A DNA stretch of 29,441 bases, from positions 1 through 29,441 of IMG/VR virus record IMGVR_UViG_3300009481_000064, one strand, 5' to 3'. Under the pieces are notes generated by a model. That model saw nothing but the letters and a program-made list of their open reading frames with translations, was not told the DNA's origin and did not search any database. A program made the translations under genes and the position numbers. Numbering within the stretch: position 1 is the stretch's first letter; every line of letters starts with the position of its first letter. This DNA comes from a virus. This document shows positions 6,725-20,408 of this stretch, piece after piece.

Positions 6725-6950
6725 ATCTGGTCTAGGTAAATGGTTTGGTGAAGAGTGGGTTGATGTTAAGACAGGTAAGCCTTGTGGTCGTAGTGGTAAG
6801 AACGACAAACGAGCTTACCCCGCCTGTAGACCCAAGTCTGTAGCTTCCCGTATATCTAAGATGGAAGCTAAGAAGAAAACTGGCCCCAGCAGGGTAAACT
6901 GGTCTGTCACTGCGTCAGGTAAAAAACGTGGGATGTCCCAGAAAAGTTAA
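6717..6950 (+). CDS. Small basic protein, DUF5872-like (last gene of the rightward operon)
   Basis: A 77-residue protein starting with GTG inside the end of the previous gene. The N-terminus reads G-L-G-K-W-F-G-E-E-W-V-D and is followed by C-G-R-S-G-K and Y-P-A-C-R-P; I associate this pattern with DUF5872. Two cysteines lie in basic context, and the remainder is rich in Lys and Ser. Function unknown. The last codons (Gly-Met-Ser-Gln-Lys-Ser-stop) contain a full copy of the TGGGATGTCCCA palindrome, and the stop shares TTAA with the stop of the convergent nrdJ gene. No terminator lies between the two operons. Confidence 0.75.
   Translation: MAKSGLGKWFGEEWVDVKTGKPCGRSGKNDKRAYPACRPKSVASRISKMEAKKKTGPSRVNWSVTASGKKRGMSQKS
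6929..6940 (+). repeat. TGGGATGTCCCA palindrome at the convergent operon junction
   Basis: Exact 12-bp core, and with the following GAAAA a 17-nt match to the reverse-strand copy near 18328. It lies in the last codons of the final rightward gene, 10 bp before its stop. Its asymmetric flank points rightward, opposite to the copies in the leftward operon. Confidence 0.8.
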
Positions 6951-11688: not shown

Positions 11689-11889
11689 TCAATCTCCTGT
11701 CTTTATTACGTTTAACAAATCTTTGAGGTCATCAAATCCAAACCACTCATGTTCTCTTTTGAGGAAACACCACCTGTTTTTTACAGGAGCAATTCGAACA
11801 CTGTCTTCTACTATAAAGTTGTTTTTATTTTCTATGTAACTCAACCCTAGGGTATCAAACTGTGATCGTCTAAGCTCTCTAGTTGACAT
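11689..11889 (-). CDS. Small protein of unknown function (66 aa)
   Basis: A 66-residue basic-to-neutral protein with an N-terminal S-T-R-E-L-R-R-S-Q-F and aromatic residues in the middle (W-C-F, E-W-F-G-F). No family is recognised. TAGGAG precedes the ATG, and the palindromic TGGGATGTCCCA element sits directly upstream, between it and the polymerase stop. Its expression may therefore be controlled separately from the polymerase. Confidence 0.65.
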   Translation of the reverse strand: MSTRELRRSQFDTLGLSYIENKNNFIVEDSVRIAPVKNRWCFLKREHEWFGFDDLKDLLNVIKTGD

Positions 11890-11906: not shown

Positions 11907-11918
11907 TGGGACATCCCA
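11907..11918 (-). promoter_or_regulatory. Palindromic element, copy upstream of the 66-aa gene
   Basis: On the reverse strand AATCTGGGATGTCCCATAAAA directly follows the polymerase stop codon and lies about 6 nt before TAGGAG. It belongs to the same family as the sites at 15389, 16386, 18328 and 18608. Confidence 0.75.
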
Positions 11919-13651: not shown

Positions 13652-13928
13652 TGATTAAAGTCTCACCATTTTTCAAAGCTACGTGTTCTAACCTGTGGCA
13701 GTTGCTACATAGTATAGCACACTTTGCTGCCTCTTGAAACACTTCTTTGTTCAACCTGTGTGATCTCCACTTAGAGGACTTCAAACCGAACTCTTTCTTC
13801 GACGGATCACGGTGGTGGAACTCCAAGACCTCCTCTGGATACGTTTGACCGCATACCTCACAGGCGTAGTTTGTCCTCATCTTGATATACAAAGAGCGAT
13901 TAAGTCTACCAAGTTCAGAACTCCTCAT
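13500..13928 (-). CDS. HNH endonuclease (probable free-standing homing-type)
   Basis: About 142 residues from the ATG at 13928, which lies in the last codons of the primase-helicase gene with CGAGG 6 nt upstream. Metal-binding and catalytic residues are C23-x2-C26, F-H38-H39-R-D and C74-x2-C77-H78, the typical zinc-HNH layout. The core ends by about residue 85; the remaining 50 residues are encoded in the region that is also the start of the DNA polymerase gene. Such genes often sit beside polymerase or primase genes as mobile intruders. A nicking/homing function is known for the family; activity here is inference. Confidence 0.85.
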   Translation of the reverse strand: MRSSELGRLNRSLYIKMRTNYACEVCGQTYPEEVLEFHHRDPSKKEFGLKSSKWRSHRLNKEVFQEAAKCAILCSNCHRLEHVALKNGETLINDKEAYTRYRNYRFARKQGLDGRYDAVEYTEQEEFFETLCRNCFNTEGDQ

Positions 13929-15369
13929 CTGCAACCTCGTGTACTTCAGGAGCAGCACCGGCAACCATCCTTCCCGTGTCCTCTTCATAGTACAGCCAGC
14001 CAGCATGTCCTGTCCGTCCTGTGCGACGGCACTTCACAAGCTGCACCTTAGTACAGTTACGGGTGTAGTCATCATCAGACATCTTGTCGCGGCTCAGAAG
14101 CAGCGTGTTAAATGCTATCTGATTGATGGACCCTGACCCCTTCATGTCATATTCGTTGACATCGTGAGGGTCTTTCACACTAGGCTTGCGGAGATGGGAT
14201 ACGATTATGATTGACGCATTAGTTTCTTTGGAAAGTTTTAAACACCTGTCCATGAAGCTATCGATCATTCCATTTTCGTTAGATGAAACCGCTGCTTGTA
14301 GTGGGTCAAGGATTATAACCTCACAGTCCATACCTTTAATTAGATACCGCATACGAGAGAACAGATCATCAATATCAGAAGACCCCATGTGGTCATCAAT
14401 ATGTATCCTGTCTGCCTCCTTCACCTCGTCGTAGAACACACGGTACTGACTGTAGTCTCTATCCTTTTCCTCTATAAGTCCGATGTTCACTCCACCGATT
14501 ACGCTGACTACATTTTCCGTAGTCTCACCTCTGTTCGACTCAAGGAATACGGCACCGATCTTACGTTTAGTTTCTGTATACATACCGTACAGAAGGTTAG
14601 TCACGAACGTGGTCTTACCTACAGATGTTAAGGCACCTACTACAGTCACCTCCCCTGCCGCCATGCCACCGTTCATCATCTTGTTTAGCGTACCAAACGA
14701 GGAAGGGAAGGGGATAATCTCCGCTTTACCACGGTTCACGAACGCATCCCAACAACTCTCATCTGATAGGGAGACAACTCCAGCGGGTTTATAATCCTCC
14801 GCTCCCCACCACGACTTCACAAACTGTTGAACCTTACCACGTTGTAGCATCTCCCCGGCATCCTTAAGTGGAAGGGATACCACCTTGGCTTTCCCCGGTG
14901 AGAAGATCGACATCACCTCTTTCGAGGCTTGCTTTCCTGCCGCGTCGTTGTCGAAACAGATTACTACCTTTTCAAAAGACTCCAACCACTCTAGGCTTTC
15001 TTTAACGTCCTTGGCTGCGGCTGCTGCTCCACGTTTGAGACTAACGACAGGGTACTTTCCGTCAAACATTTCGGCCACAGCGAGAGCATCTACCTCGCCT
15101 TCCGTTACGGTGACGAACTTACCTCCCTTGTTCCATATGTTCTGACCGAACAATCCCGTGCCTTGAAAAGTTCCTGTTGTGTAGAAGTCTTTGCTTGGGC
15201 AGTTCCGAACCTTAGTTCCCACCACTTCACCACCGTCTTGTGTGTAGTAAGGGTAGTGGTGCTTAAGTACCTGTCCACTTTCGTTGTCATACTCCAGAGT
15301 GACGCCGTAATCTTCGGCTATCCTCTGAGATATCTTCCTGTCAGTAATTGGTCCTGATACACCAATCAT
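13915..15369 (-). CDS. Probable short helicase form from internal start (gp4B-like)
   Basis: An in-frame ATG (codon 70 of the primase-helicase) is preceded by AGAGG 7 nt upstream. Directly before that is a copy of the palindromic element otherwise found before gene starts. The product would be 484 residues, lacking the zinc ribbon but keeping TOPRIM and helicase domains. T7 makes the equivalent gp4B from an internal start at codon 64, which raises the likelihood. This is inference from sequence signals; no expression data are available. Confidence 0.6.
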   Translation of the reverse strand: MIGVSGPITDRKISQRIAEDYGVTLEYDNESGQVLKHHYPYYTQDGGEVVGTKVRNCPSKDFYTTGTFQGTGLFGQNIWNKGGKFVTVTEGEVDALAVAEMFDGKYPVVSLKRGAAAAAKDVKESLEWLESFEKVVICFDNDAAGKQASKEVMSIFSPGKAKVVSLPLKDAGEMLQRGKVQQFVKSWWGAEDYKPAGVVSLSDESCWDAFVNRGKAEIIPFPSSFGTLNKMMNGGMAAGEVTVVGALTSVGKTTFVTNLLYGMYTETKRKIGAVFLESNRGETTENVVSVIGGVNIGLIEEKDRDYSQYRVFYDEVKEADRIHIDDHMGSSDIDDLFSRMRYLIKGMDCEVIILDPLQAAVSSNENGMIDSFMDRCLKLSKETNASIIIVSHLRKPSVKDPHDVNEYDMKGSGSINQIAFNTLLLSRDKMSDDDYTRNCTKVQLVKCRRTGRTGHAGWLYYEEDTGRMVAGAAPEVHEVADEEF

Positions 15370-15576
15370 TTCTAATCCTCTCGTTTTATGGGATGATCCC
15401 AGATTTTCTGTGGGAAGTGTGGAGGGATCGATTGATCCCCCCGACACCACATGACCACACTTGAAGCAGAACCCGTGTCCGTCATCGTAGACTGCGAGGT
15501 TGTCACCTGAGTTATCCTCACCGTTCTCTCTACATGCTGGACATGGAGCCTTACCAATAAAGGTGGATTCCAACAT
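13915..15576 (-). CDS. Bifunctional DNA primase-helicase (T7 gp4-like)
   Basis: At 553 residues (T7 gp4 is 566), this unwinds the fork and primes lagging-strand synthesis. The N-terminal zinc ribbon has C12, C15, C37 and C40. TOPRIM residues are T-E159-G-E161 and F-D209-N-D211. The helicase has Walker A G-A-L-T-S-V-G-K321-T, Walker B I-I-L-D424-P, the H461 sensor (V-S-H) and the C-R-R-T-G-R-T-G region that holds the arginine finger in T7. A linker (about 48-69) separates zinc ribbon and TOPRIM. It contains a palindromic element and a strong internal ribosome binding site before Met70. The ATG overlaps the SSB stop (TAATG). Confidence 0.95.
   Translation of the reverse strand: MLESTFIGKAPCPACRENGEDNSGDNLAVYDDGHGFCFKCGHVVSGGSIDPSTLPTENLGSSHKTRGLEMIGVSGPITDRKISQRIAEDYGVTLEYDNESGQVLKHHYPYYTQDGGEVVGTKVRNCPSKDFYTTGTFQGTGLFGQNIWNKGGKFVTVTEGEVDALAVAEMFDGKYPVVSLKRGAAAAAKDVKESLEWLESFEKVVICFDNDAAGKQASKEVMSIFSPGKAKVVSLPLKDAGEMLQRGKVQQFVKSWWGAEDYKPAGVVSLSDESCWDAFVNRGKAEIIPFPSSFGTLNKMMNGGMAAGEVTVVGALTSVGKTTFVTNLLYGMYTETKRKIGAVFLESNRGETTENVVSVIGGVNIGLIEEKDRDYSQYRVFYDEVKEADRIHIDDHMGSSDIDDLFSRMRYLIKGMDCEVIILDPLQAAVSSNENGMIDSFMDRCLKLSKETNASIIIVSHLRKPSVKDPHDVNEYDMKGSGSINQIAFNTLLLSRDKMSDDDYTRNCTKVQLVKCRRTGRTGHAGWLYYEEDTGRMVAGAAPEVHEVADEEF
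15389..15401 (-). promoter_or_regulatory. Palindromic element inside the primase-helicase gene
   Basis: On the reverse strand AATCTGGGATCATCCCATAA, a 13-bp variant of the palindrome with a three-base centre. It is encoded by the interdomain linker and sits 7 bp before the AGAGG ribosome binding site of the internal ATG at 15369. Confidence 0.75.
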
Positions 15577-16385: not shown

Positions 16386-16397
16386 TGGGACATCCCA
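16386..16397 (-). promoter_or_regulatory. Palindromic element upstream of the 56-aa basic gene
   Basis: Reverse strand AAATCTGGGATGTCCCATAAAT, about 60 nt downstream of the predicted transcription start and just before the AAAGG ribosome binding site. It therefore lies in the 5' leader if the promoter at 16467-16495 is real. Confidence 0.75.
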
Positions 16398-17885: not shown

Positions 17886-18097
17886 TCGTCATCCTCCTCT
17901 TGAAATAATCCATCCCAGTAATTCACAAGATACCCTCTTGTTCCTATCATTGCAACAAAAACTTTCTTACCCGGTTCGTATTCCTCTTCTGTCTCATACA
18001 TTCCAGTGTTCCCCTTGGCCGGGATGGTGTACCCCGCCTTTCGGAGTGCCTTGATTGTTTCCTGTGTTTGTTCCTTGGTCCATACTCTAACAGTCAT
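17882..18097 (-). CDS. Small protein of unknown function (71 aa)
   Basis: The ATG at 18097 overlaps the preceding stop (ATGA), with AGAGG upstream; a longer frame to 18127 is unlikely. The N-terminus has a helix (E-Q-T-Q-E-T-I-K-A-L-R-K-A-G-Y), then beta-type segments (K-V-F-V-A-M-I, Y-L-V-N-Y-W) and an acidic end. No family is recognised. Confidence 0.65.
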   Translation of the reverse strand: MTVRVWTKEQTQETIKALRKAGYTIPAKGNTGMYETEEEYEPGKKVFVAMIGTRGYLVNYWDGLFQEEDDE

Positions 18098-18309
18098 GTC
18101 TTTACCTCTGCTTCGGTTTCGATCCATACTTTAGCACCACAACTCAGTGGCTTATCGGGACTATATACTATTTTACATGGTCCGTCAACATAAACTTCGT
18201 GAGCATAGTTATTATCTTTGTATGTCTTCACGGTTATCACTGGCTCACGTTCGCCTGTCTTGGCGTTGCTTTTAATAATGTGCTGGTTTATGTGAATAAC
18301 TTTCTTCAT
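18094..18309 (-). CDS. Small protein of unknown function (71 aa)
   Basis: A 71-residue protein that begins M-K-K-V-I-H-I-N-Q-H and looks mainly beta (V-I-T-V-K-T-Y, K-V-W-I-E-T), with two cysteines. Small beta proteins with an N-terminal I-x-I-N-x-H recur in phages, function unknown. TAGGAG precedes the ATG, with the palindromic element immediately upstream inside the end of the previous gene. Confidence 0.68.
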   Translation of the reverse strand: MKKVIHINQHIIKSNAKTGEREPVITVKTYKDNNYAHEVYVDGPCKIVYSPDKPLSCGAKVWIETEAEVKT

Positions 18310-18584
18310 AGCGTGCTCCTAATTTTCTGGGACATCCCAGATTTCAAGATATTTTCTATCATAGACTGGTCAAGTTGTCTACAGTGATCTTCACCACCAT
18401 ATAGCTTCAGGTATTTATTGATATGCTTTGACGTGGTGCGACTGAAGTATTCCGTTGTTCTGAATGGTCCCTTGCAGTCCCATCCAGCTACCGGGGTTTC
18501 ATAGCTGAACAATACCGAGACGTTGGCCTTAGTGTTTTGAAGTTCAGTCATGTTCGAGCCGAGTTGTTTGATTGACATATTCAT
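18306..18584 (-). CDS. DUF8033-like phage protein (92 aa)
   Basis: Residues 22-37 read N-V-S-V-L-F-S-Y-E-T-P-V-A-G-W, followed by T-T-E-Y-F-S-R-T-T-S-K-H-I-N-K-Y-L. This S-Y-x-T-P-V-A ... T-S-x-H-I-N-K order fits a small phage family I know as DUF8033 (tentative), with no established function. The C-terminus reads G-M-S-Q-K-I-R-S-T-L, its codons formed by the palindromic element. The same Gly-Met-Ser-Gln-Lys appears at the end of the gene at 6950. AAAGGAAACTAAACT precedes the ATG, and the gene overlaps the next by 4 nt. Confidence 0.7.
   Translation of the reverse strand: MNMSIKQLGSNMTELQNTKANVSVLFSYETPVAGWDCKGPFRTTEYFSRTTSKHINKYLKLYGGEDHCRQLDQSMIENILKSGMSQKIRSTL
18328..18339 (-). promoter_or_regulatory. 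Palindromic element upstream of the 71-aa gene at 18309
   Basis: Reverse strand AAATCTGGGATGTCCCAGAA, followed by AATTAGGAG. Here the palindrome extends to 16 bp (TCTGGGATGTCCCAGA). It lies within the last codons of the DUF8033-like gene. Confidence 0.78.
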
Positions 18585-18607: not shown

Positions 18608-18619
18608 CGGGACATCCCA
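18608..18619 (-). promoter_or_regulatory. Palindromic element upstream of the DUF8033-like gene
   Basis: Reverse strand AAATCTGGGATGTCCCGGAA, one mismatch to the core. It begins 4 nt after the stop of the two-helix membrane protein gene and ends before the AAAGGAAACTAAACT leader. Confidence 0.72.
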
Positions 18620-19271: not shown

Positions 19272-19811
19272 TCACTTGTTTTTGAAGAGGTTCACAACGT
19301 CCTGAATGACTTCAGCGGGGTCATGTCCAGCCTGTTCCGCCTGTAGCAGCAAGGCGAAGATAGAACTGGCATAGTCGTCTCGCTGGCCGTTAGGCGTCGT
19401 GTCTTCAGGAGCTTCTTCAGAAGGTTCTTCGGTAGGTTCCTCCGCAGCCTTCTGAGCCTTCTGGATAGCCTTCCGCATGGCATCGATCTTCCGCCACCCG
19501 TTCGTCTCGCCTTCAGATACTACCTCATCGAAGTTCTCGGATACGAACTTGATGTCTCGAACGTGGTTCGAACGGTCAGATTGAGAGAGACCTACGAACA
19601 TGTCCTGTAGTACCTGAGAGGCATCGATCATCTTGACAGTGAGAGACTTCGTAGGCCATGCGCCGTCCGTCTCCTTCTTCAGTATCTCAGCAGCGAATGG
19701 GTGAACTTCCAGCACCAGCTTTCGTGCAACCTTCGCATCTGTTTTGACTGCCTTGACCAGTTCCTTGTTGATGGTTTCAGCGGTTACTTCTACGGTTTCG
19801 ATGGTAGTCAT
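19272..19811 (-). CDS. First gene of the leftward operon, acidic protein of unknown function (179 aa)
   Basis: The 179-residue protein has a strong ribosome binding site (TAGGAGGA). The first 120 residues look helical and globular with few motifs. About 118-140 is a Glu/Pro-rich linker (E-E-P-T-E-E-P-S-E-E-A-P-E-D). The end is a short helical tail (I-F-A-L-L-L-Q-A-E-Q-A-G, V-V-N-L-F-K-N-K). Being the first and most promoter-near early gene, it may be a regulator or host-takeover protein, but nothing in the sequence proves this. The upstream control region holds several palindromes. Not recognised as a known family. Confidence 0.75.
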   Translation of the reverse strand: MTTIETVEVTAETINKELVKAVKTDAKVARKLVLEVHPFAAEILKKETDGAWPTKSLTVKMIDASQVLQDMFVGLSQSDRSNHVRDIKFVSENFDEVVSEGETNGWRKIDAMRKAIQKAQKAAEEPTEEPSEEAPEDTTPNGQRDDYASSIFALLLQAEQAGHDPAEVIQDVVNLFKNK

Positions 19812-19843: not shown

Positions 19844-19856
19844 ATGTTCTGAACAT
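19844..19856. promoter_or_regulatory. Perfect palindrome ATGTTCTGAACAT
   Basis: Six-base arms with a one-base centre, 33 bp upstream of the first leftward start codon. A candidate operator for the leftward operon. It is not a match to the alphaproteobacterial LexA box (GTTC-N7-GTTC). Confidence 0.55.
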
Positions 19857-19865
19857 AGGGACAGG

Positions 19866-19922
19866 TTCTGAGGATGTCCAGAGAAAATTCTGGGATATCC
19901 CATTTTTTTTCTGAATATCCCC
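19866..19922. promoter_or_regulatory. Tandem array of three TGGGANNTCCC-like sites
   Basis: TTCTGAGGATGTCC (19866), TTCTGGGATATCCC (19888) and TTCTGAATATCCCC (19909) follow each other at 22 and 21 bp, two DNA turns, so a bound protein would lie on one face. The middle copy contains the perfect palindrome TGGGATATCCCA (19891-19902). Confidence 0.65.
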
Positions 19923-19980: not shown

Positions 19981-20013
19981 TGTGGTTCTGATGTGGTTCT
20001 GATGTGGTCTTGA
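19981..20013 (+). repeat. Three tandem 11-bp repeats (TGTGGTTCTGA)
   Basis: Two exact copies (19981-19991, 19992-20002) and one degenerate copy (TGTGGTCTTGA, 20003-20013). The 11-bp period equals about one helical turn. They adjoin a TATATATAAGG patch, so they may be activator sites for a leftward promoter or origin iterons. Confidence 0.75.
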
Positions 20014-20021
20014 GGATTTCA

Positions 20022-20033
20022 TGGGATGTCCCA
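20022..20033 (+). promoter_or_regulatory. TGGGATGTCCCA palindrome in the control region
   Basis: Exact core, extended to ATGGGATGTCCCAT by one base on each side and followed by ATATCT. The asymmetric centre is read on the forward strand, opposite to the leftward-operon copies. Confidence 0.75.
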
Positions 20034-20075
20034 TATATCTACACTCAGGCATTCTTTCTTCTGACGTTTTCTCAG

Positions 20076-20125
20076 GTGGTTCTCAGGTAGTCATGAGGTG
20101 GCGATGTGGTTCTCAGGTAGTCATG
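20076..20125 (+). repeat. Two 20-bp direct repeats spaced 30 bp
   Basis: GTGGTTCTCAGGTAGTCATG occurs at 20076-20095 and 20106-20125. Its TTCTCAGGT core also occurs at 20069 and at 20271. Together with the 11-bp repeats it suggests an iteron-type origin or activator site. Confidence 0.75.
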
Positions 20126-20303
20126 GGGTTTCTGTGGTGGTCATAGGTAGGCCGGGGGGACCCATTGACGACGCGCCATGTTATATATACCCTCATGACC
20201 ACATGGGAAGCAATTTGGAGGTCCATGAATTAGATAACTAATTTAACTAAAGTAGAATTAAGGGGTTGACTTCTCAGGTGAGGCGGGGTATTCATAAGAA
20301 CTC

Positions 20304-20408
20304 CTAAGGAATCCTATTGACAAGAGAAGCTAAATATGTTATAATATAGATATATTAGGTTGTTCATTAAGTAGTTTATTAAAATTAATAACTTAGTATA
20401 TTCCTTAG
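20304..20408. promoter_or_regulatory. CTAAGGAAT/ATTCCTTAG inverted repeat flanking the rightward promoter
   Basis: Nine-base arms at 20304-20312 and 20400-20408 bracket the sigma-70 promoter. The right arm with its flank (TATATTCCTTAGAATACTTAAG) resembles the leader at 16.4 kb on the reverse strand. Confidence 0.5.
20317..20345 (+). promoter_or_regulatory. Perfect sigma-70 consensus promoter for the rightward operon
   Basis: TTGACA (20317-20322), exactly 17 bp, TATAAT (20340-20345). Expected start of transcription near 20352, about 115 nt before the first rightward gene. The host RNA polymerase should recognise it without help. The flanking inverted repeat could allow repression until the late phase. 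Confidence 0.85.

Follow-up and report, generated by a model that had tools for sequence, protein, structure and literature searches.

What does a short palindrome do inside a primase-helicase gene, where it stands just ahead of a potential second start codon? The question arises from a virus record of 29,441 bases (IMGVR_UViG_3300009481_000064, positions 1 to 29,441), the whole of which is referred to here as the window. On the minus strand, the linker between the zinc ribbon and the TOPRIM domain of the encoded primase-helicase reads AAAATCTGGGATCATCCCATAAAACGAGAGGATTAGAAATG, comprising a palindrome, then a Shine-Dalgarno (SD) sequence and then Met70. The initial annotation, which had described this succession as an internal start, was accurate in sequence and coordinates, and the product of about 484 residues that it expected from codon 70 agrees with the open reading frame (ORF), in which Met70 leaves 484 residues. 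The locus comprises the following features:

13915..15576, minus strand: primase-helicase, full-length, 553 aa (phrog_239, E 1.5e-163)
15389..15401, minus strand: internal palindrome TGGGA-TCA-TCCCA (TGGGATCATCCCA), codons L59-H63 in the primase-helicase linker
15376..15381, minus strand: Shine-Dalgarno AGAGGA of the proposed internal start, exceeding synonymous expectation across relatives
15367..15369, minus strand: ATG of Met70 (codon 70), the proposed internal start, conserved in most relatives
13915..15369, minus strand: proposed 484-residue helicase form lacking the zinc ribbon, a putative T7 gp4B analogue predicted from the ORF and the start signals

The layout recalls gene 4A/4B of phage T7, in which an in-frame internal ATG with its own SD lies between the zinc-binding and the RNA polymerase/TOPRIM parts (PMC12593628; NC_001604). 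The helicase-only start of T7 had been placed at codon 64, which the T7 record confirms (11754 vs 11565), with a strong SD at that codon. As in T7, the window presents an in-frame, SD-bearing ATG between zinc ribbon and TOPRIM. In contrast to T7, for which no palindrome has been described and whose internal start is established, the start in the window is a predicted one accompanied by a palindrome. The SD at T7 Met64 is stronger than that at Met70, and an SD-bearing start codon in the linker is found in several other phage primases, though not in all. Judged by these sequence features, the internal start is likely comparable to that of gp4B and probably represents a further case of the T7 type.

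We followed the start signals through relatives from an IMG/VR scan, namely loci whose primases share 54-99% identity with the query. Most lineages down to ~59% identity retain Met70, within an otherwise variable linker; it is missing from L046/L047/L049 and from the 54-57% group. The SD at Met70 beats synonymous resampling when 21 related sequences are pooled (z -4.5; the p-values overstate independence because the compared sequences share ancestry), and several single lineages show no excess over synonymous codons. A column-by-column control ranked Met70 7th of 521 by z and 1st of 14 conserved Met columns, with six other columns, none of them Met, above it; part of the SD signal could thus stem from the K/R-rich codons of the linker. 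The claim that the start signals are conserved beyond protein-level need is supported by the pooled excess and by the lead among Met columns, and is tempered by the six higher-scoring non-Met columns.

The palindrome at this site has its own pattern of conservation. In most relatives with 77-99% identical primases, both arms of the internal copy are kept, whereas the loop and the encoded residues differ. The arms are retained in the 89-99% group, in the 77-78% group (L014, L015, L019 and others) and in L021. The centre reads TCA, CGG or CCG, and the central residue is accordingly S, R or P, while the arm codons GGA and TCC stay the same; where residues are conserved, these lineages use identical codons in only ~48% of cases. 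Resampling of synonymous codons yields a palindrome at the site in 2.3% of cases for the window protein, 4.5% for L015 and 12% for L021. In the close clade (the window, L005, L011, L012 and L013), the invariant run over element and SD extends for 39 nt and is the longest of the gene, the next one elsewhere measuring 38 nt. The internal palindrome is absent from L022, L148, L151 and L167, which bear the element elsewhere. Because the L022/L148 lineage retains Met70 and its SD, the palindrome is not required for the internal start. Of the features for which conservation had been sought in relatives, Met70 with its SD is thus found in most lineages, whereas the palindrome is gone from L022/L148. 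A second inverted repeat (GGGATCAATCGATCCC, minus strand) occupies 15421-15443, immediately ahead of the internal element; two changes within it leave G-U pairs in L005.

The same palindrome recurs across the window. Exact TGGGANNTCCCA is present in 6 copies, compared to 0 for the reversed-control pattern, and allowing one mismatch gives 8 matches vs 0.85 expected. In shuffled windows, no single 5-bp-arm palindrome reached more than 3 copies, vs the 6 observed. The set consists of the six exact copies, one variant (18608) and the internal copy, which has a 3-base centre (TCA) and measures 13 bp, the remaining copies having 2 bases and measuring 12 bp. Besides the internal one, four copies stand before ATGs with an SD, two belong to the divergent region and one is in a coding end:

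11907..11918, minus strand: start-associated copy before the gene 11689-11889, with the polA stop codon within its flank
16386..16397, minus strand: start-associated copy before the gene with ATG 16365
18328..18339, minus strand: start-associated copy before the gene 18094-18309, in the coding end of the preceding gene
18608..18619, minus strand: start-associated copy before the gene 18306-18584, the sole arm variant (TGGGA..TCCCG)
19891..19902, minus strand: copy associated with the leftward promoter, 10 nt upstream of its -35
20022..20033, minus strand: second upstream copy in the divergent region, ~131 bp further upstream
6929..6940, plus strand: further copy, within the coding end of the last rightward gene and followed by no start
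19852..19880, minus strand: sigma-70-like leftward promoter TGGACA-17-TATGTT, at the same position in several relatives

The internal palindrome ends 19 nt ahead of Met70, and the four start-associated copies end 17-23 nt ahead of their ATGs. The spacing of palindrome, SD and ATG at Met70 equals that of ordinary gene starts, in support of a likely internal start, as had been suggested. The copy at 6929-6940 is shared with L005 only, among the relatives examined.

Across the relatives, the dispersed element follows the consensus TGGGAY(N)RTCCCA. The element-bearing group consists of uncultured, mostly marine phages in which the palindrome precedes the starts of several early genes. In 76 distinct start modules, it lies 17-30 nt (mostly 17-25) before the ATG, with the SD in between and AT-rich flanks. 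The arms are near-invariant, with one arm variant among the start modules of the clade, and vary too little for a test of RNA covariation. The centre follows the Y..R rule in 76/76 modules, yet its two bases are independent of each other (p 0.57). The spacer has 2 or 3 bases depending on the lineage, and in the window clade 3 bases are kept in the primase copy only, presumably because losing 1 bp there would put the primase out of frame. Several start copies touch the end of the gene before them or reach into it, which leaves little room for a separate promoter. A second class is represented by a copy upstream of the sigma-70-like -35 box that serves the first leftward gene, at a distance of 8-11 nt and at the same place in most lineages examined. 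The element is absent from relatives at 54-64% primase identity, and pattern scans detected it also in phages with primases just 34-38% identical. We found no convincing equivalent, that is, a repeated start palindrome, in the scanned parts of non-bearing relatives or of HTVC115P/HTVC103P, and no relevant description of such a palindrome in the literature on phages of this kind or on HMO-2011. The initial annotation had also suggested that the element itself helps genes to start. Copies upstream of a -35 box and at other non-start places speak against this idea, as do the palindrome-free Met70 and SD of L022/L148 and the relatives at 54-64% identity that lack the element.

One gene follows the distribution of the element:

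19272..19811, minus strand: early1, first leftward gene, 179 aa, all-helical, assigned to no family; candidate cognate regulator by co-occurrence (model m17a6b06f0ed6)

In the primase-sampled set, at least two elements are present in 15/15 loci with early1, and 61 of the 64 loci lacking early1 do not carry at least two. The three exceptions, which have elements and miss early1 from the locus, are L005, L008 and L021. The full record behind L005 does contain early1, L008 is a 10.8-kb contig, and the record behind L021 (G007) has elements but no early1 on a contig that begins inside the early region. Alone of 45 window genes, early1 occurs in 4/5 distant bearing contigs (L139, L116, L142/L192, which are one contig, and L168; not L130) and in 0/19 non-bearing relatives. 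An alignment search did not find it in 15 non-bearing records, some of which are fragments, the search having no positive control. One locus departs from the rule in the other direction: L189 has an early1 relative and no element within 8.6 kb. The structural model of early1, which is predicted to be all-helical, shows an N-terminal domain modelled with confidence, then an acidic linker that is disordered and a pair of helices at the C-terminus; the protein is net acidic, with a near-neutral helical domain. Searches for a helix-turn-helix (HTH) or other known domain found none, and no DNA-binding fold was recognisable. There was no PDB fold match and no sequence match, a pattern-based scan of bacterial genomes revealed no relatives, and tblastn gave no match in cultured phages. 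Being acidic and of no recognised DNA-binding fold, early1 may therefore bind the element itself, serve as a partner or act on a host factor. Based on its distribution, we infer that early1 is the best candidate for the element-binding protein or its essential partner.

A parallel was found in a cultured phage. The best structural match of early1 in BFVD, a viral structure library, is S4S2E1 (prob 0.97, with a weak E-value of 0.025), which corresponds to gp74 of the SAR116 phage HMO-2011 (100% identity across 205 residues). Our own model of gp74 was of low quality (pLDDT 45) and was used for no purpose beyond this identification of S4S2E1. Sequence similarity between early1 and gp74 was not detectable. 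The HMO-2011 genome (NC_021864) carries a palindrome of its own, AGTCCG-N4-CGGACT (AGTCCGACAGCGGACT), in five copies that all fall in the early region: four are followed by an SD and ATG at 10-32 nt, and the fifth is located ~275 bp upstream of gp74. In shuffles of this genome, the maximum was 1-2 palindrome copies vs the 5 observed. As in the window, the early block opens with a gene for a helical protein, and a repeated palindrome precedes early gene starts. Unlike the window, HMO-2011 uses another palindrome, its protein lacks sequence similarity to early1, and primase and helicase are separate genes. The HMO-2011 palindrome and gp74 thus appear to support the general arrangement, without proving homology with early1. 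At position 60 of HMO-2011, a palindrome-SD-ATG module precedes an unannotated ORF start, gp01 being annotated from 433.

We propose that the palindrome is a regulator site at selected early starts which also marks Met70, and that the primase-helicase gene gives rise to two products, a reading of the sequence data to which we assign an even chance. The palindrome would be a sequence-specific binding site that a dimeric protein most likely recognises in double-stranded DNA, and that is placed by these phages at the starts of selected early genes and at the first leftward gene's promoter. With its invariant arms and its Y..R centre it resembles a protein-binding site, and the independence of the centre bases fits two half-sites rather than a base pair. 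The internal copy would mark Met70 as a tagged start, in which case both the primase-helicase and the 484-residue helicase form are the most likely products, as for T7 gene 4. Once bound, the protein may adjust expression of the tagged gene downstream, either as an obstacle to transcription across the site or by making the neighbouring ribosome-binding site less accessible, and it may control its own promoter via the copies upstream of the -35. The binder or its essential partner would be early1 (19272-19811). If the internal primase copy is active, it would constitute a regulatory tag on one of two products from a single gene. A wider proposal, which we hold to be possible though on the doubtful side, is that early1 and HMO-2011 gp74 represent a novel family of phage regulators, each of which recognises a start-site palindrome of its own, uses it gene by gene and, at the internal start, sets the ratio of primase-helicase to helicase.

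The alternatives to this reading are not mutually exclusive in the confidence that we attach to them, and several differ from it on single steps. Two concern the internal site. The start at Met70 may be real and the primase palindrome a relic, or an independent operator unrelated to the start. We regard this as conceivable, though we lean against it: the primases of L022/L148/L151/L167 lack the palindrome, with L022 retaining Met70 and SD, and the internal copy of the window clade is 13 bp long vs 12 bp for the others, but a frame break upon 1-bp deletion can explain the retained length. Moreover, the spacing to Met70 matches that of ordinary starts, the copy is invariant within the 12-bp clade, and its arms persist across diverged lineages. 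It is less probable that there is no internal start at all, Met70 being kept for protein reasons and the SD-like bases arising from the K/R-rich linker. Glu69-Met70-x-Gly is indeed a conserved protein motif, and the SD excess is absent from several single lineages; yet the pooled excess makes Met70 the best of the Met columns, and the location is that of the T7 gp4B start.

The remaining alternatives concern the nature of the element. It might act in mRNA, as a 4-6 bp hairpin upstream of the SD that tunes translation, the internal helicase start included, either bound by a protein or acting on the 30S subunit or on mRNA stability. A translational role in RNA retains some probability, and we consider it doubtful rather than far-fetched, because the element keeps a tight distance from SD and ATG even within the primase gene, in coding sequence where DNA-level sites could lie elsewhere. 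The predicted hairpins have energies of -4.9 to -9.4 kcal/mol, and the sole arm variant keeps a G-U pair. However, the copy upstream of the -35 would be outside the transcript of that promoter, the Y and R bases of the centre show no pairing association, the clade offers no compensatory arm change, and the local fold at the internal copy is unremarkable (z -1.44). We favour a DNA-bound regulator because one copy is not part of the transcript from the promoter and the rule for the centre is consistent with two half-sites. A role as boundary sequence aiding recombination of gene cassettes between phages is very improbable: small tagged genes are 91-97% identical in phages with 37-38% identical primases, but neither the copy inside the primase gene nor those at the promoter fall on cassette boundaries, and the tie to early1 would be left unexplained. 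Least credible, with hardly any chance in our estimate, is that a phage RNA polymerase uses the element as its promoter, be it T7-like or of the N4-like hairpin type; the element is a short conserved sequence before genes and has a hairpin-promoter-like shape, but no such polymerase was recognised among the long window proteins or in the relative G003 described below, and a sigma-70-like promoter adjoins one of the divergent-region copies.

Read as a putative regulator-binding site, the element appears to have its nearest known kinds in the start-associated sequences (SAS/ESAS) of cluster K mycobacteriophages and in the stoperators of L5 and other cluster A phages. The former are short repeats at the starts of some genes only, found in the non-structural half and mostly sharing one orientation. 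SAS is defined as a 13-bp asymmetric consensus (GGGATAGGAGCCC) 3-7 bp before the start, and ESAS comprises inverted repeats upstream of starts that the authors judged more likely to be DNA-binding sites; neither function nor partner protein was known at the time of description (PMC3203893). The window element likewise is a repeat upstream of start codons in a subset of non-structural genes. It departs from the SAS consensus as the palindrome TGGGAY(N)RTCCCA located 17-30 nt before the ATG, and from SAS/ESAS together in being symmetric, 12-13 bp long and ~20 nt before the ATG, in occurring also beside a promoter and within coding sequence, and in having a named candidate partner protein. Stoperators are asymmetric sites bound by a monomeric HTH repressor in temperate phages (PMC9283540). 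The element resembles them as one type of site present at promoters and in short intergenic spaces, whereas it is symmetric, and early1 has no HTH family or fold match. Because one defining feature of each kind is thus missing from the window, we assign the element to neither SAS/ESAS nor the stoperators. The question of start repeats is now testable, since the element can be traced across levels of relatedness and has a single candidate partner and a parallel in a cultured phage.

Further observations concern the surroundings of the element. The tagged gene 18094-18309 is 91-97% identical in L139, L142/L192 and L130, whose primases are 37-38% identical, which suggests recent exchange of tagged cassettes. 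A 36,454-bp relative, G003 (IMGVR_UViG_3300025151_000124), has 94-bp direct end repeats and is therefore probably complete. No phage RNA polymerase was recognised in G003 or among the long window proteins (Pfam/PHROGs, ORF size); a direct PF00940 genome search had no working control and was uninformative. The divergent region of the window contains GTGGTTCTCAGGTAGTCATGAGG-type direct repeats at 19982-20135, which are similar in relatives and may be origin or regulatory repeats. It also holds a rightward promoter of perfect consensus (TTGACA-17-TATAAT, 20317-20345), a similar one being found in G003.
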